NCBI RefSeq assembly: GCF_004123295.1
Contig: NZ_SDMK01000002.1
Location: forward strand, 558,001-622,000
Direction: 5' to 3'
Length of the DNA: 64,000 nt
DNA from: Silvibacterium dinghuense
Lineage (GTDB): Bacteria > Acidobacteriota > Terriglobia > Terriglobales > Acidobacteriaceae
Part shown: positions 29,269 to 40,037 of the stretch, one piece after another
Layout: each line of letters starts with the position of its first letter
How positions within the stretch are numbered: the first letter of the stretch is position 1
Translations under genes and position numbers: made by a program
Notes under the pieces: generated by a model
The model's input: the letters and a program-made list of their open reading frames with translations, nothing else
Database searches by the model: none
What the model was told of the DNA's origin: nothing

Positions 29269-29345
29269 TGGTGCGCCCAGAAGGATTCGAACCTCCGGCC
29301 TACTGATTCGTAGTCAGTCGCTCTATCCAGCTGAGCTATGGGCGC
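29269..29345 (-). tRNA. tRNA-Arg (anticodon ACG)
   Basis: Cloverleaf on the minus strand: 7-bp acceptor stem GCGCCCA/TGGGCGC, D arm GCTCAGCTGGATAGAGC, anticodon stem ACTGA/TCAGT with loop CTACGAA (anticodon ACG, read as ICG after deamination), variable AGGCC, and T arm GGAGGTTCGAATCCTTC. The discriminator A and CCA are encoded in the DNA (29272 to 29269). Confidence 0.96.
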
Positions 29346-32916: not shown

Positions 32917-33036
32917 TGTCATCCCGACCGGAGCGCAGCGCAGTGGAGGGACCTGCGGTTTTGCCGGTACAGGGAGAACCGCAGGTTTCTCCACTCCGCA
33001 GGACGATGAAACTGTCCTGCTCCGGTCGAAATGACA
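32917..33036. repeat. MITE-like intergenic inverted repeat
   Basis: A 120-bp palindromic element. Terminal inverted repeats of 18 bp (TGTCATCCCGACCGGAGC at 32917-32934 and its complement with two changes at 33019-33036) enclose a second inverted pair (32942-32960 with 32977-32995, containing ACCTGCGG). It has no coding potential. I recall closely similar CCGACCGGAGC elements in many acidobacterial genomes, which cannot be checked here. Confidence 0.75.
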
Positions 33037-33104
33037 GCCTTTACGATCGCTATAGGTGGATATAGCTAGAGCAAAATCCGACATCCACAAAAATCATGCC
33101 TGCA

Positions 33105-33143
33105 ATAAGACGAGGCCCGGGGATTACCCGGGCCTCGTCTTAT
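33105..33143. terminator. Strong bidirectional hairpin between the secretin-like gene and tonB
   Basis: A perfect 17-bp stem (ATAAGACGAGGCCCGGG and complement) with a 5-base loop GATTA. It sits 42 bp past the tonB stop. The AT-rich stem ends give short U-rich tails in both directions, so it could end both converging transcripts. Confidence 0.75.
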
Positions 33144-33184
33144 AAACGGCCTGTTTAATAATAATTATTATTAAACAATAGCAC

Positions 33185-34297
33185 TTAGTAAATTCGGAAG
33201 TTCACCTCGATATTGACCTGCACTGCCACCGGGTGTCCCTGGTAATACGCGGGTTTGAACTTGTACTGCTTCACCGCTTCGATGGCTTTTTCGTCCAGTC
33301 CCATGCCCAGCGGCCGGATTACACGAATCTGCTGAGGGTTTCCCTGCGGATCGACGATGAGGGAAACAAGGCAGATGCCCTGGTACTTGGCACGCCGCGC
33401 CTCATCCGAAAACTCAGGATCAACCGAGTACACCAGCTGCGGAGCAGAAACGCCGCCGCCGGGGTGCATCACGCCACCGCCATAACCGCCACCCTGGCCA
33501 GGTCCCACACCACCGCCGGAACCGGAGCCGATACCGCCGCCGTGTCCGCTACCGAAGCCAGAACCGGAACCGGAGCCCTGCGAGGCCAGCGCCACCTGCG
33601 GGGAGTTGGGCAGGCCGATGTTCGGCATGTTGGGATTATCCGGCAGCTTCACCTGCTGCGGCATGACGATCGTGGGCTCCACCGCCAGCTTGGGGTGGTC
33701 ATTCCGGATGATCTGCGGTGGAACGGTCTGCGTCTTCGCAATCTTGGGCAGATGCCCCTTGGAAGCCTCGACGACCTCGTGCGCACCGCCACCGCCGCCG
33801 CCGCCCATCGACTGGTTCATCTTTACCGTCATGGGGATGAACGGCTTGACGTCCACCGTCGTGGCCACTTCTTTCTTCTGGATCGGCCGCGTCTTCCACT
33901 GCCTCCAGGCATAGAACAAGGCCAGCAGAATCAGGAGGTGCAGCACAATGGCGATGCCCGTCGAGACGGGATCGCGTTTGACCGCCATCCGATCGGCCAC
34001 CGCGACAGGCTTCGAGGTCAGCTCGAGCGGTGGAAGCTTCTTCGGGAACAACAGATCCTGAATGCTGCCCAGCAGCGTCTTCCAGACCGGTTCGGTCTGC
34101 GTAGCGTCGACAACTTCAACTGGCTGAGAACTCAACTGCAGCGGAGGCTGCTTGGAAGACGAAAAGGCGTCGCGCAGATTTGCCATCAGCGACGACCACA
34201 TGGAACCGTCGGCTTCTACCAGAAGATGTGCTTCCTCTTCTGCCGGCCGTGTTTTGGGTGATTCCAGATCCGGAGGTGTCAAGAGCTCGTTGCCCAT
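33185..34297 (-). CDS. tonB: TonB-family energy transducer with duplicated N-terminal motif
   Basis: 370 residues. The C-terminal TonB domain (about 290-370) has YSVDPEFSDEARRAKYQGI, VSLIVDPQGNPQQIRVIRPLG, LDEKAIEAVKQYKFKPA and NIEVNFRIY. A single membrane segment lies at about 112-131. Between them is a long Gly/Ser/Pro-rich periplasmic linker (with MGGGGGGGA and several GSGSG runs). Unusually, about 110 residues precede the membrane segment and hold two copies of a ~31-residue unit (W34-D64 and W72-D102: W..L...., D, ..K..PPL.L.S.PV.V.D). TonB passes proton-motive force to outer-membrane receptors. ExbB/ExbD genes and receptors are not in the window. Confidence 0.85.
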   Translation of the reverse strand: MGNELLTPPDLESPKTRPAEEEAHLLVEADGSMWSSLMANLRDAFSSSKQPPLQLSSQPVEVVDATQTEPVWKTLLGSIQDLLFPKKLPPLELTSKPVAVADRMAVKRDPVSTGIAIVLHLLILLALFYAWRQWKTRPIQKKEVATTVDVKPFIPMTVKMNQSMGGGGGGGAHEVVEASKGHLPKIAKTQTVPPQIIRNDHPKLAVEPTIVMPQQVKLPDNPNMPNIGLPNSPQVALASQGSGSGSGFGSGHGGGIGSGSGGGVGPGQGGGYGGGVMHPGGGVSAPQLVYSVDPEFSDEARRAKYQGICLVSLIVDPQGNPQQIRVIRPLGMGLDEKAIEAVKQYKFKPAYYQGHPVAVQVNIEVNFRIY

Positions 34298-34559
34298 ATT
34301 CTCTGCCGGTCGTTCCTTGCTCCGGCTATCCCCCCATTATGGACGACCTACGGTCCACTTGTCTTGAATCGGAGACGAACACATCCTCCCTGTATCCCGG
34401 AAGGAACTGCGCCACAACTCTCTGTCCTGCAAAATAGACGGCACATCCGCCGGTAAGTTACGCAATCGGCGCCCTCTTTCACCGGATACAATGAAATTTC
34501 AGAATCACGCCGATCCAATCCGCTGATGTGCAGCGGGATCGCACTACACAGTAGGAGAC

Positions 34560-37439
34560 ATGATGTCCGCAGCGCCCGAACTCAAGGCGACCCTTACCCT
34601 GCCTGAAACCAAGTTCCCCATGAAGGCGAATCTGCCGCAGAATGAGCCGCTTCGCCTCAAGCAGTGGTCCGAGGAAGGCCTCTACGAGCAGATCCGCAAG
34701 GCCAGGAAGGGCGCGGAGAAGTACATTCTCCATTACGGCCCTCCCTACGCCAACGGCCCCATACACCTGGGCCACGCGCTACAGAAGTGCATTAAGGATT
34801 TCATCCTCAAGTCGAAGACCATGTCCGGCTACGACGCGCCGCTCGTCCCCGGCTGGGATTGCCACGGCCTGCCCATCGAGATCAAGGTGGACGAAAAGCT
34901 CGGCCGCAAGAAATTGGAGATGCCGGCGCTCTCCGTCCTTCGCGCCTGTCGCGAGTACGCGCAGAAGTTCATCGACCTCCAGCGCTCGCAGCTGATCCGC
35001 CTGGGCGTCTTCGCCCATTGGGACAAGCCGTACCTCACCATGTCCAAGCCCTATGAGGCCAAGACCCTTGAAAGCTTCTACGACTTCTTCGAGAAGGGCT
35101 TTGTCTACAAGGGCTTGAAGCCTGTCTACTGGTGCCTGCACGACAAAACCGCCCTCGCCGAAGCGGAAGTCGAGTATGAGCAGCACACCAGCCCGAGCGT
35201 GTACGTCCGCTATCCGTTGACCAGCGCGCCCGAGGCCATCGACCCTGCGCTTGCCGGCAAGACCGTCTTCACCATCATCTGGACAACCACTCCCTGGACA
35301 CTGCCCGCATCGCTCGCCGTCGCCTTTCAACCGGAGTTCGACTATGTTGCACTGGAGCAGGACGGCAATACCTATATTGTTGCCGAAGGCCTGGCCGCCG
35401 CTGTGCGCGAGGCCTGCAACCTGCAGTCGGCCACCGAAGTAGCGAAGTTCAAAGGCACCCAGCTCGACCGCGTCACCTTCCGCCATCCCTTCCTGGAAGA
35501 GCGCACTATTCTCGGCGTGAATGCCGACTACGTGACCGCCGACGCCGGCACCGGCGCCGTGCACACCGCCCCGGCTCATGGCGCGGATGACTTCTATACC
35601 GGTGCGCGCTATGGCCTTGAACAGACGTGCAATGTGGACAATGAAGGCCGCCTGCGCAATGGCCTGCCCAACTGGGAAGGCAAGACCGTCTGGGAGGCAA
35701 ATCCGCTCATCATCGATCTGCTGCAGGAGCGCGGCGTGCTCATGGGCCGCCAGGATATCTACCACTCTTATCCGCACTGCTGGCGCTGCCACAACCCGGT
35801 CATTTTCCGCGCCACCGAGCAGTGGTTCATCAGCATGGAGACGCCGCTCAAGAATGCGGACGGTAGCGAGATCACCTTCCGCCAGCGCGCCCTCGACGAA
35901 ATCAAGGGCGTCAAGTGGGATCCGTCCTGGGGTGAGGAGCGCATTTCGAACATGATCGCCACCCGGCCCGATTGGTGCATCTCGCGCCAGCGCCTCTGGG
36001 GCGTGCCCATCGCCGTTTTCCTCTGCAATGCCTGCCATGAGCCGCTGAGCGATGCGGCACTCTATCGCCGCATCGTTGCACTCTTCCATGAAGAGGGCGC
36101 GGAGGCCTGGCACAAATATTCGGTCGCCGACCTGCTACCCGCCGGAACCGCCTGCGCAAAGTGCGGAAACGCACAGCCAAAGGAAGGCCTCGACGCCTTC
36201 CGCAAGGAAACCGACATCCTCGACGTCTGGTTCGACTCCGGCATCAGCTGGAATGCCGTGCTCGTCGGCAACGAGGAGCTGCAGTTCCCTGCCTCGCTCT
36301 ATATCGAGGGCGCGGATCAGCATCGCGGCTGGTTCCACTCGTCGCTTCTCTGCTCTACCGCTATCAAGGAACAGGCTCCCTACCTTAAGGTCGCCACCGT
36401 CGGCTGGACACTCGATGAACAGGGCCGCGCTTTCTCGAAGTCGCTCGGCAACGGCGTCGATCCGGTCGATATCGCCGACCGCCTCGGCGCCGAGATCGTG
36501 CGCCTCTGGGCCGCGAGCGTCGACTTCCGCGAGGACGTGACCGCCAGCGAGAACCTGATGCAGCGCGCCGCCGAGAACTACCGCAAGCTGCGCAACACTT
36601 TCCGTTTCCTGCTCGGCAACCTCAGCGGCTTCGATCCGGTGAAGGATGCCGTGGCCGAAAGCGAGCTGCTACCGCTCGACCGCTACATGCTGGCCCGCAC
36701 ACGCGAACTGACAGAAAAAGTTCTGGCGTGGTATGCGCAATTCGAGTTTCACCGCGTCTACCACGCTGTGAACGAATTCACCATCGTAGACCTGAGCGCG
36801 CTTTACCTCGACGTGCTCAAGGACCGCATGTACACCTTCGCGCCCGTCAGCCGCGAGCGCCGCTCCGCGCAGACTGTGATCTGGAAGATCACCGAAGCGC
36901 TGGTGCGCCTGGTCGCGCCCATGCTCACCTTCACCGCCGACGAGGTCTGGAGCTATCTGCCCAAGATCGAAGGCCGTGAAAACAGTGTGCACCTGGCGCT
37001 CTTCCTTGAGCCCGACCAGATCGCGACGAAGGATGACGCGCTGCTTGCCGACTGGGGCAAGTTGCTCGAGCTGCGCGATGTTGCATTGAAGGCTCTCGAG
37101 GAGGCACGCAAGGAAAAGCGCATCGGCAAGGCTCTGGAAGCCAAAGTCGAGTTACGGGGCGTGTACCGTGGGTTCGAATCCCACACTCTCGCCCGCTACG
37201 CCGAATCCTTAAAAGAGCTGTTTAACGTTTCGGCCGTCGAGCTCATCCCCGGCAACGAAGAAGCCGTCACCGCGACCGTACTTCCCGCCGATGGCGCCAA
37301 GTGCAACCGCTGCTGGAACTACCGCAACGACACTGCTGCTTTCGGTCCCTGGTCAGACGTCTGCGGCCGCTGCGCCGCTGCGCTCCGCCAGATGCCGGAA
37401 TTTGCGCCTTTTGAGGCGGCAGGGAGCGTGAACGCGTGA
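34560..37439 (+). CDS. ileS: Isoleucyl-tRNA synthetase
   Basis: 959 residues, class Ia synthetase charging tRNA-Ile, with editing (CP1) domain. The HIGH motif is PIHLGHA (about 67-73) and the KMSKS-loop equivalent is AFSKSLGN (624-631); the usual Met is Phe. TTTPWTLPASLA and GADDFYTGARYG mark the editing domain, and zinc Cys pairs are CNRCW (about 914) and CGRC (about 934) at the C terminus. ATG 34560 has TAGGAG upstream. Odd: residues 867-878 (GVYRGFESHTLA) are encoded by a tRNA-like 3' fragment (see 37151-37193). The 262 bp upstream to tonB hold no gene. lspA overlaps its stop codon. Confidence 0.97.
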   Translation: MMSAAPELKATLTLPETKFPMKANLPQNEPLRLKQWSEEGLYEQIRKARKGAEKYILHYGPPYANGPIHLGHALQKCIKDFILKSKTMSGYDAPLVPGWDCHGLPIEIKVDEKLGRKKLEMPALSVLRACREYAQKFIDLQRSQLIRLGVFAHWDKPYLTMSKPYEAKTLESFYDFFEKGFVYKGLKPVYWCLHDKTALAEAEVEYEQHTSPSVYVRYPLTSAPEAIDPALAGKTVFTIIWTTTPWTLPASLAVAFQPEFDYVALEQDGNTYIVAEGLAAAVREACNLQSATEVAKFKGTQLDRVTFRHPFLEERTILGVNADYVTADAGTGAVHTAPAHGADDFYTGARYGLEQTCNVDNEGRLRNGLPNWEGKTVWEANPLIIDLLQERGVLMGRQDIYHSYPHCWRCHNPVIFRATEQWFISMETPLKNADGSEITFRQRALDEIKGVKWDPSWGEERISNMIATRPDWCISRQRLWGVPIAVFLCNACHEPLSDAALYRRIVALFHEEGAEAWHKYSVADLLPAGTACAKCGNAQPKEGLDAFRKETDILDVWFDSGISWNAVLVGNEELQFPASLYIEGADQHRGWFHSSLLCSTAIKEQAPYLKVATVGWTLDEQGRAFSKSLGNGVDPVDIADRLGAEIVRLWAASVDFREDVTASENLMQRAAENYRKLRNTFRFLLGNLSGFDPVKDAVAESELLPLDRYMLARTRELTEKVLAWYAQFEFHRVYHAVNEFTIVDLSALYLDVLKDRMYTFAPVSRERRSAQTVIWKITEALVRLVAPMLTFTADEVWSYLPKIEGRENSVHLALFLEPDQIATKDDALLADWGKLLELRDVALKALEEARKEKRIGKALEAKVELRGVYRGFESHTLARYAESLKELFNVSAVELIPGNEEAVTATVLPADGAKCNRCWNYRNDTAAFGPWSDVCGRCAAALRQMPEFAPFEAAGSVNA
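37151..37193 (+). other. tRNA-Ser-like 3' fragment inside ileS
   Basis: GTGGGTTCGAATCCCAC at 37168-37184 is a perfect T arm (5-bp stem, 7-base TTCGAAT loop). It is preceded by GTGTACC, resembling the end of a class II variable arm, and followed by ACTCTCGCC, resembling a Ser tRNA acceptor 3' strand. No matching 5' half (acceptor, D arm, anticodon arm) lies upstream, so this is a fragment and not a tRNA gene. It is read in frame by ileS as GVYRGFESHTLA. Confidence 0.6.
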
Positions 37440-37948
37440 CCCTCGCCAAAAGTCAGACGCTCGACATGCGGGGATGGCTCTTCGGCCTCTCCGCGCTCAT
37501 CATCGGCCTTGACCGCTGGACGAAACACCTGGTCAGCCATCACATCGGGCTTGGGGATGCGATCACCGTAATCCCAGGCGTCTTCCGCATCTCGCATGTA
37601 CTCAATTCCGGCGCGGCCTTCAGCCTGTTCACAGATTCGCCGCACCCCGAGCACACGCGCTGGTTCCTCATCGCCTTTTCGCTGATCGCAGCGATTGTGG
37701 TTCTTGGCATCCTGCTGCGTATTGGCCGGCGCATGACCTTGACCGCGGTCGCTCTCGCGCTGGTTCTCGGCGGCGATATCGGCAACCTCTGGGATCGCAT
37801 GCGCACCGGCCTGGTCGTCGACTTCCTCGAAGTCCACATCGTTCACTATCACTGGCCAGACTTCAACGTAGCGGACTCGGCCATCGTCACCGGGGGCATC
37901 CTGCTTCTGCTCGCCACCCTCTTCACCAAAGATGAAAGCCATGCCTAG
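37436..37948 (+). CDS. lspA: Lipoprotein signal peptidase (signal peptidase II)
   Basis: 170 residues, four membrane segments. Cleaves signal peptides of prolipoproteins before the lipidated Cys. Catalytic aspartates D129 (VVDFLEVH) and D147 (FNVADSAIVTGG) match E. coli D123 and D141; VLNSGAAFSLF and LGGDIGNLWDRMRTG are the other family blocks. The GTG start overlaps the ileS stop codon (GTGA), a frequent ileS-lspA coupling. Confidence 0.96.
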   Translation: MTLAKSQTLDMRGWLFGLSALIIGLDRWTKHLVSHHIGLGDAITVIPGVFRISHVLNSGAAFSLFTDSPHPEHTRWFLIAFSLIAAIVVLGILLRIGRRMTLTAVALALVLGGDIGNLWDRMRTGLVVDFLEVHIVHYHWPDFNVADSAIVTGGILLLLATLFTKDESHA

Positions 37949-38906
37949 GCGTTGGCTAACTGCGATCCTCTTCGGATTCGCATTGTCCGGCCTGCTGACT
38001 CTGTTTGCAGGCCGGACACACGCAGCTCAGCCACCCCAGCAGCTCGTTCTTCTCGATACCGATATCGGCGATGACATCGACGATGCCTTCGCGCTCGCGC
38101 TCATCGAGCGCAGTCCTGATCTGAGGCTCCTCGGCGTCACCACCGCATTCGGGGATACCCATCTTCGCGCCCGCCTCGTCCGCCGCTTCCTCGATGCAAC
38201 CGGCTTTGCCTCAGTCCCCGTCGCGGCGGGCGTACCGACTACGCCGAAGACCACATTCACTCAGGCCGCATACGCAAACAGCAGCGGCACCGCGCATATC
38301 TCCTCCCTCTCCGGCCCTGATTTCCTTCTCGATCAGATCCGTCGCCATCCCGGCCAGATCACGCTGCTGGCCATTGGTCCTGAGACGAATCTCGCTGCCG
38401 CCATCGACAAGGACCCGGCGACCTTCCGCACATTGAAGCGCATCGTGATCATGGGCGGTTCGGTAGACCGCGGCTACGATGGCCACACCCACGCCGATCC
38501 CGAGTGGAATATCCTTTGCGACATCCCGGCTGCGCAAAAGGTCTTCACCTCGGGTGTGCCCATCGCGCTCATGCCGCTCGACTCGACAATCCTTAAGTTT
38601 CCTCCGGATCAGCTGCAAGAGCTCTTCTCGCACCGCACACCGCTTATCGGTCAGCTGCATGAGCTTGAAACCGAATGGAGCAAAAATTCACCCTATGCCG
38701 GTCCCACGCTAGCTCCAACACTCTTCGATCCCATGACCGTCACTTACGCAGTGCGTCCCGATCTCTGCCCCACGACGCCGCTGCATCTGGTCATCGACGA
38801 TAAGGGCTTCACGCGGCGCACGGCCGGCACACCGAATGTCGGCGCATGCCTGAAGTCCGACCCCGGCGCATTCTTCCACTTCTATCTCTCACGAGTCTCC
38901 CGCTAG
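37932..38906 (+). CDS. Exported inosine/uridine-preferring nucleoside hydrolase family protein
   Basis: 324 residues. A signal peptide (AILFGFALSGLLTLFAGRTHA) is followed by the calcium-binding Asp cluster DTDIGDDIDDAFAL (42-55). GPETNLAAAI, IVIMGGS and ADPEWNILCD are the next family blocks, and TLFDPMTV stands where LHDP is usual (the His is replaced by Phe). Nucleoside hydrolases release the base from ribonucleosides; export suggests scavenging in the periplasm. It overlaps lspA by 17 bp, so it is probably in the ileS-lspA operon. Loss of the His may alter substrate choice. Confidence 0.88.
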   Translation: MKAMPRRWLTAILFGFALSGLLTLFAGRTHAAQPPQQLVLLDTDIGDDIDDAFALALIERSPDLRLLGVTTAFGDTHLRARLVRRFLDATGFASVPVAAGVPTTPKTTFTQAAYANSSGTAHISSLSGPDFLLDQIRRHPGQITLLAIGPETNLAAAIDKDPATFRTLKRIVIMGGSVDRGYDGHTHADPEWNILCDIPAAQKVFTSGVPIALMPLDSTILKFPPDQLQELFSHRTPLIGQLHELETEWSKNSPYAGPTLAPTLFDPMTVTYAVRPDLCPTTPLHLVIDDKGFTRRTAGTPNVGACLKSDPGAFFHFYLSRVSR

Positions 38907-38909
38907 GTT

Positions 38910-39668
38910 ATGCGCCGCTTCCGTCCGATTTTTCTTGCTCTCTTTTTCTCCGCACTGCTCTCGCGTGCTTTTGCGCAGGACACCTACCGCATCGTCCACA
39001 CCTACCCGCACGATCCCGAGTCCTTCACCCAGGGCCTTGTCTTTGTGGACGGCCATCTCTACGAGAGCACGGGACTCAATGGCCGCTCCTCGCTGCGCAT
39101 GGACGACCTCGAGACCGGGCATGCGCTGCAGAAGCTCGACATTGACCCGAAGTACTTTGCCGAAGGCCTGACCAACTGGGGCAGCACGCTGGTGCAACTC
39201 ACCTGGAAGGCGAACACTGCTTTTGTCTATGACCGCTTCAGCTTCCGCCAGCTCAAGACCTTCCATTACGACGGCGAAGGCTGGGGGCTTACGCAGGACG
39301 GCCACAGCCTCATCCTCAGCGATGGCACCGCCACGCTTCGCTTCCTCAATCCCGAGACCTTTGCCGTGCGCCGCCGCATCACGGTGAGCGACCATGGCAT
39401 ACCGGTGAAGGAGCTGAACGAGCTCGAATACATCCACGGCGAAATCTACGCCAATATCTGGTTTCAGAAGCGCATCGCCCGCATTTCTCCGGCCACCGGC
39501 AAGGTTCTCAGTTGGATCGACCTCAGCGGCCTGGTCGCCGATGCCGGTGTCACCGACGAAAATGCCGTCCTCAACGGCATCGCCTACGACGCGCAGCACG
39601 ATCGCCTCTTCGTCACCGGCAAACTCTGGCCGAAGCTCTACGAGATCAAGATCGTGAAGCAGCCATAG
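38910..39668 (+). CDS. Secreted glutaminyl-peptide cyclotransferase (bacterial/plant type)
   Basis: 252 residues with a signal peptide (FLALFFSALLSRAFA). Five-bladed beta-propeller glutamine cyclotransferase: HDPESFTQGLVFVDGHLYESTGLNGRS, EGLTNWG, QLTWKANTAFVYD, GEGWGLTQDG, LNELEYIHGEIYANIW, and the C-terminal VLNGIAYDAQHDRLFVTGKLWPKLYEI. These enzymes cyclise N-terminal Gln to pyroglutamate on exported proteins. It starts three bases after the nucleoside hydrolase stop, so it closes the ileS operon. Confidence 0.9.
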   Translation: MRRFRPIFLALFFSALLSRAFAQDTYRIVHTYPHDPESFTQGLVFVDGHLYESTGLNGRSSLRMDDLETGHALQKLDIDPKYFAEGLTNWGSTLVQLTWKANTAFVYDRFSFRQLKTFHYDGEGWGLTQDGHSLILSDGTATLRFLNPETFAVRRRITVSDHGIPVKELNELEYIHGEIYANIWFQKRIARISPATGKVLSWIDLSGLVADAGVTDENAVLNGIAYDAQHDRLFVTGKLWPKLYEIKIVKQP

Positions 39669-39691
39669 GGCTGCTGCGCGCAGGGCGGATC

Positions 39692-40037
39692 GCCTTCGGC
39701 CCCCGCTCCCGCTGGTCGCGATTGAGAAAGCATAAGCCCGACGGTGGCCCACACAAGCCCGGTTTTAGCTTGAGTGGGGTAGCGCTAGACTGAATTCGGG
39801 TGCCCCACATCTCGTGCCGTTCGAGATGTGGGTTCGCAGAACGAACCGCGAAGGTCCGTACCTCCCGCCCAAGCGCGGAGCTTGGATGGGGCACCCGTTT
39901 CCGTTTTCACCGCAAAGAACCTCAATCGCGACCAACGAGAGCGGGAGCCGAAGGCAGAATGCCGCGCGGTTAGCGTCGCGACCAGCGGGAGCGGAGGCCG
40001 AAGGCACAAGGCCTGGACGGCCAGTCCCTCGTATAAT
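39692..40037. repeat. Composite intergenic repeat cluster upstream of uvrA
   Basis: A gene-free stretch (39669-40115) containing three copies of a 28-bp core (GCGACCAGCGGGAGCGGAGG then CCGAAGGC): inverted at 39692-39719, and direct at 39928-39955 and 39978-40005. An 11-bp perfect hairpin CCCACATCTCG / CGAGATGTGGG lies at 39804-39832. Between 39747 and 39780 is an inverted copy of the ACTCAAGCCAAAA..GGCTTG module also found at 48.6 kb. Further core copies occur at 46743, 48679 and 63369. It is non-coding; open frames through it are accidental. Confidence 0.8.
40032..40037 (+). promoter_or_regulatory. -10 TATAAT at the end of the repeat, candidate uvrA promoter
   Basis: A perfect TATAAT directly follows the repeat sequence GGCCTGGACGGCCAGTCCCTCG. 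No good -35 is seen at 16-18 bp. The uvrA start is about 80 bp downstream. No obvious SOS box was recognised. Confidence 0.35.

Follow-up and report, generated by a model that had tools for sequence, protein, structure and literature searches.

Rickettsia palindromic elements lie within housekeeping genes, where this foreign sequence is translated in frame. Short patch double illegitimate recombination (SPDIR) is a single event that proceeds from single-stranded DNA and is independent of RecA. It was reportedly defined by experiments in Acinetobacter baylyi, in work of Harms et al. that is said to have appeared in 2016 as PNAS 113:15066. In a review, SPDIR is named as a recombination process of bacterial transformation with relaxed identity needs, and its rates in natural populations are called "supposedly insignificant" (PMC7192050). 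In the genome of Silvibacterium dinghuense, ileS, the gene for isoleucyl-tRNA synthetase, contains an in-frame copy of 27 letters from the organism's own serine tRNA gene. Like the Rickettsia elements, this patch is a sequence of foreign origin read in frame in a housekeeping gene, but it is present in a single copy that can be traced to a tRNA gene. It resembles the attachment (att) sites of tRNA-integrating elements in being a 3' tRNA fragment away from its own gene; it differs from them in having other end points, in lying within a coding sequence where gene order is intact and in that no element or integrase was seen alongside. As in SPDIR, a short length of chromosome has been exchanged for a short ectopic one, which in SPDIR may be of intragenomic or extragenomic origin. 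SPDIR was studied experimentally, whereas here only the end product is seen in a wild genome, known from sequence and without an unpatched ancestor. None of the titles and abstract openings listed in literature searches describes a bacterial protein-coding gene with a piece of tRNA in it, and absence from print is not claimed.

The window, by which we mean the whole stretch of 64,000 nucleotides that was analysed, corresponds to G000:C2:558001-622000 of the own genome. In it, ileS occupies 34560..37439 on the plus strand and encodes 959 amino acids in an intact reading frame, as seen in the ORF list, by Pfam and by phmmer. The Pfam domains of IleS are tRNA-synt_1 (residues 33-661) and Anticodon_1 (residues 707-864), and phmmer matched the protein to two IleRS chains of solved structure, 8c9e_A (E 9.4e-258) and 1ffy_A (E 1.7e-233). 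The gene is flanked by TonB_C and Peptidase_A8 genes (Pfam); the latter is lspA (signal peptidase II; 37436..37948, plus strand, Peptidase_A8 E 1.3e-40), which lies directly 3' of ileS.

The patch itself lies at 37164..37190 on the plus strand, reads TACCGTGGGTTCGAATCCCACACTCTC and is identical at 27 of 27 positions to positions 59-85 of the own tRNA-Ser(GGA) gene. It consists of nine whole ileS codons in phase 0 encoding YRGFESHTL, residues 869-877 of IleS, just past the Anticodon_1 domain match. Both the window sequence and the own tRNA-Ser gene show a complete T arm (GTGGGTTCGAATCCCAC) within the patch, at 37168..37184 on the plus strand, preceded by TACC, the last four bases 5' of the T stem, and followed by ACTCTC of the acceptor 3' strand. 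A previous sequence-only reading of this DNA had reported a T arm read in frame in ileS, which was borne out: 37158-37193 translates in frame to GVYRGFESHTLA, IleS residues 867-878. The same reading had taken the flanks of the T arm to be tRNA-like, and this holds in part. TACC and ACTCTC are found in the own tRNA, but the GTG at the left junction (37161..37163, plus strand) is absent from it at this place, and the GCC at the right junction (37191..37193, plus strand) fits it only by skipping one C. The origin of GTG is uncertain; it precedes the 27-mer in 7 of the 29 viral tRNA-Ser matches described below. Comparison with the own tRNA and with relatives indicates that GCC is most likely ileS sequence (LARY, as in the relative L006) rather than tRNA sequence minus one C. 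Upstream, the match ends abruptly, with ...AAATCC in the tRNA versus ...GGCGTG in ileS; downstream, the tRNA continues with CGCCA versus GCCCG in ileS. The patch alters a variable stretch of IleRS and leaves the enzyme uninterrupted.

The own tRNA set consisted of 46 genes called by ARAGORN in 47 fetched places (L179 yielded none). tRNA-Ser(GGA) is represented among them by a single gene of 90 positions at C2:484391-484480, on the same contig as the ileS patch and 110.7 kb away from it. When this gene and its flanks were searched against the own genome by BLAST, the ileS place ranked third of 16 matches (27/27, E = 4.9e-7), after tRNA-Ser(GGA) itself and the place of tRNA-Ser(GCT). The sequence-only reading had offered a captured tRNA fragment as one possible origin, to be abandoned if no tRNA of the genome matched past the universal core; the match to tRNA-Ser(GGA) reaches far beyond that core and supports capture. 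The own tRNA-Ser(GGA) reads TACCG...CACACTCTC, while the corresponding genes read TAACG...CACTCTCTC in G001, G002, G005, G007 and G008 and TAACG...CACACTCTC in G006. Among these seven genus genomes, only the own tRNA fits the patch at all 27 positions, because the six others have TAACG and five of the six also CACTCTCTC. The incomplete genomes G003 and G004 stand outside this comparison, since the pattern gave only another, GGGGG-type match there.

The background of tRNA matches was estimated from exact matches to the 46 own tRNA genes after the tRNA-Arg of the window had been masked. The longest matches in the 64-kb window were 27, 15 and 14 nt, followed by matches of at most 13 nt, and the longest in 20 order-3 Markov windows were 13-16 nt. 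In genome_contigs, which may leave out records of the own genome or of a very near one, the exact 27-mer gave 32 matches in 30 stretches, 31 of them inside ARAGORN tRNA-Ser genes. The remaining match (L035:918-944) lies about 190 nt past a tRNA-Ser gene, in the 3' half of a further tRNA-Ser. All 29 exact matches in viral_contigs were inside tRNA-Ser genes. When up to three mismatches were allowed in a search of the own genome and 60 relatives, 31 of the matches fell on the 30 loci fetched (L063-L092); of these 31, 30 were inside tRNA genes according to ARAGORN, the other being at a contig end. As to the tRNA-Ser half of L035, from Pelagibacteraceae AG-435-N04, it spans 884-947 and lies 3' of the tRNA-Ser gene at 639-728, and the short intervening stretch may hold a tiny ORF.

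The patch region of ileS was compared in 30 of the 60 relatives, 29 of them aligned and one, G003, represented by a partial sequence (L103). The 27-mer was absent from the 29 aligned ileS sequences and from the partial G003 sequence, and the longest match of the 29 to any own tRNA was 11-14 nt. The genus set of nine genomes provided the whole region in five besides the own (L004-L008); the partial match of G003 covers the region, that of G007 begins at about the last residue of the patch, and G004 gave no match. At the patch, the genus relatives have different residues, and their codons are unrelated. The finding that the sequence-only reading had named as fatal to a tRNA origin, namely the same residues encoded by unrelated codons in close relatives, was not seen.

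Loop lengths were taken from the protein alignment and from those rows that plainly show the loop (rows such as L009, L012 and L013, in which a wrong stretch was caught, were left aside), and the codon rows of L010 and L011 were not used. The loop has 21 residues in the own gene, 19 in L004, L005 and L006, 21 in L007 and 22 in L008, and the residues of the L007 and L008 loops, as long as or longer than the own, are unrelated to it. The ileS stretch around the patch varies in length within the genus, and the alignment to 8c9e_A shows a two-residue gap and poorly aligned residues at the patch. A length-tolerant region, as the sequence-only reading had described it, is in keeping with these 19-22 residues, but its expectation that residues 867-878 are an insertion is not: the alignment with relatives points rather to a replacement that made the protein two residues longer than in most of them. 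It suggests that about seven codons (~21 nt) were exchanged for nine (~27 nt), the replaced length being an estimate from species whose ileS nucleotide identity is no higher than 79% and not from a direct unpatched ancestor.

Nucleotide identity to the own ileS ranges from 72.6 to 78.7% in the genus relatives, which are too distant for the junctions to be read for microhomology. The nearest, L004 and L005, are 78.7% identical to the own ileS outside the patch, and the rough probability that 27 positions stayed unchanged since the split from them is 0.0015-0.0016. Because 27 unchanged positions are improbable at this level of identity, the copying event is probably younger than that split. By tblastn, lspA lies beside ileS in 28 of 30 loci, the own included; the two exceptions are L011, which has no room for it, and L027, with no match within 1488 bases.

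The patch is not part of a tRNA. The sequence-only reading had seen no tRNA 5' half, and the analysis agrees, as ARAGORN calls only the tRNA-Arg at 29269-29345 in the window. A search of 36900-37500 with Rfam gave three matches up to E 5, Plastid-psbl-rps4, tRNA-Sec and GHRLOS, all well under their gathering scores (15.6 bits versus 47 for tRNA-Sec). The Plastid-psbl-rps4 match, on the minus strand, is the same signal as the T arm, because it spans identical positions and its model contains the T-arm complement. A hidden or functional tRNA was rejected, since there is no complete cloverleaf, no ARAGORN call and no Rfam match that reaches its gathering score. We assign the patch no role as a tRNA or in regulation and infer that it is a scar, neutral or nearly so, that is translated within IleRS. 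That the host gene encodes a tRNA synthetase had been singled out in the sequence-only reading; it is without demonstrated meaning and looks like a coincidence, because there is one event, the donor belongs to another amino-acid family (a serine tRNA, in an enzyme for isoleucine) and there is no tRNA-like fold.

The genome contains 61 GGTTCRANTCC sites, 31 of them in tRNA places above the cut-off and 30 outside, ileS included. Among the other 29 sites outside tRNA genes, four are att-like tRNA 3' fragments. Two derive from tRNA-Met and lie outside called tRNA genes: L190 (G000:C1:1711893-1712069), with 33/36 identity from tRNA position 33, and L193 (G000:C1:2303509-2303685), with 42/46 from position 31. 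The other two derive from tRNA-Glu: L194 (also L210; G000:C2:784-960, at the contig start and about 0.9 kb from the contig end), with 34/37 from position 33, and L197, with 44/45 from position 32. The remaining 25 sites score 10-15 and resemble chance occurrences. A borderline case is L189 (G000:C1:1694203-1694379), with 24/29 identity to a tRNA-Arg 3' end including CCA, which may be a decayed tRNA remnant. The stretch of about 11.4 kb between tRNA-Glu(TTC) and the 44/45 copy of its 3' half (L209, G000:C2:409001-424500) looks like an integrated element. Besides an integrase gene close to the tRNA (L209:1877-3025, minus strand, Pfam Phage_integrase E 1.1e-25), it holds an ORF of 1862 aa that contains RHS repeats and matches Ntox47 at its C terminus.

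How did the tRNA sequence come to be in ileS? The sequence-only reading had listed chance, and a fortuitous convergence of ileS codons on something like a T arm could draw on the occurrence of 11-nt T-loop cores at 30 of 61 sites outside tRNA genes. We rejected it and regard its probability as negligible, for the match of 27 nt exceeds the background maximum of 15-16 nt and 31 of the 32 genome_contigs matches to the 27-mer are in tRNA-Ser genes, the other being in a tRNA-Ser half. A selfish in-frame repeat, comparable to the Rickettsia palindromic elements, would likewise be read in frame in a housekeeping gene, and the sequence is partly palindromic; such a repeat would be dispersed in multiple copies, however, and the 24-mer with up to three mismatches occurs at only two places in the genome, one of them the tRNA gene itself, which makes this origin next to inconceivable. 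The sequence-only reading had further suggested a former integration scar, in which an element using the tRNA-Ser 3' end would have entered ileS and, on exit, left part of its attachment site behind. The att-like fragments above show that this genome does hold such remnants, one of them with a phage-type integrase gene between it and its tRNA gene. Yet all four start at tRNA position 31-33, in the anticodon loop, and two reach the CCA end, whereas the ileS patch begins after the variable arm and stops short of the CCA end. Precise excision typically leaves at most a few bases of the crossover region, not 27. No integrase-like ORF was seen in the ORF list (ORFs of at least 100 aa) for 33000-40000 of the window, nor in that for the 20 kb around the tRNA-Ser gene; of four ORFs adjoining that gene, three matched MatE, Response_reg and DUF481 in Pfam and one had no match. 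With end points that differ, no integrase-like ORF nearby and the ileS-lspA order kept, we consider an att scar very improbable.

In a substitution of the kind favored below, the donor may have been foreign, a phage or another bacterium with a tRNA-Ser bearing the 27-mer; such tRNAs exist, as the 29 viral contigs show, and in 7 of the 29 the match extends to 30 nt with GTG included. The three extra bases, however, amount to a 1 in 64 chance per donor, most of the seven are near-identical tRNAs, and the own tRNA, already in the cell, suffices for the whole patch, so a foreign donor appears improbable. A broken or stalled fork in ileS could also have copied the tRNA-Ser stretch by template switching, or captured tRNA-derived DNA by end joining, with loss of local bases. 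The end product would be identical, and the net gain of two residues fits an insertion plus a deletion, but two steps or a coupled deletion would be required. In addition, the variable-arm hairpin of the own tRNA lies just 5' of the patch, and the GCGTG before ACCG can be read as a skip over this hairpin. We did not adopt this reading, which would lengthen the match by GCGTG, as it is based on five bases, of which GGC also occurs in the relative L004. Overall, template switching or end joining is an unlikely but plausible source of the patch.

We therefore favor, with a probability of roughly 0.7, a single recent ectopic short-patch substitution of the SPDIR type, templated by tRNA-Ser DNA. 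A short single strand or nascent strand with tRNA-Ser sequence would have annealed at ileS through a few chance-complementary bases and would, in the course of replication or repair, have been incorporated by copying or ligation, such that about 21 nt of ileS gave way to about 27 nt of tRNA-Ser sequence. To survive in ileS, such an event would presumably have had to preserve the reading frame and to fall where the sequence can vary. As in SPDIR, the segment is short and identical to an ectopic locus, local bases were replaced (about seven other codons in relatives, by estimate) and the flanks are collinear, with ileS-lspA intact. Against this substitution count the low natural rates given in the review, the fact that both the replaced length and any junction microhomology are estimated from relatives no more than 79% identical in ileS nucleotides, and the L007 and L008 loops, which match or exceed the own loop in length with other residues. 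A two-step history, with a longer insertion that was then trimmed, leads to the identical end state.

As far as can be seen, this tRNA-derived scar is ordinary in function and unusual in clarity. It belongs to a type of mutation already known, seen here plainly in nature; it is not a new system and reveals no regulatory link between tRNA-Ser and IleRS. It represents an ectopic short patch of identified source in a housekeeping gene of a natural genome, in which donor, recipient, end points and frame can all be read and which probably arose once the nearest relatives had split off. Such patches are easily miscounted as clustered point mutations, and the ileS case shows what to look for. It is conceivable, though we would give it long odds, that strongly transcribed tRNA genes, or single strands derived from tRNAs, are recurrent donors of in-frame patches in this lineage and that a property of the patched IleRS is altered. 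If this were true, tRNA-encoded peptides such as YRGFESHTL would become part of enzymes and provide protein evolution with raw material.
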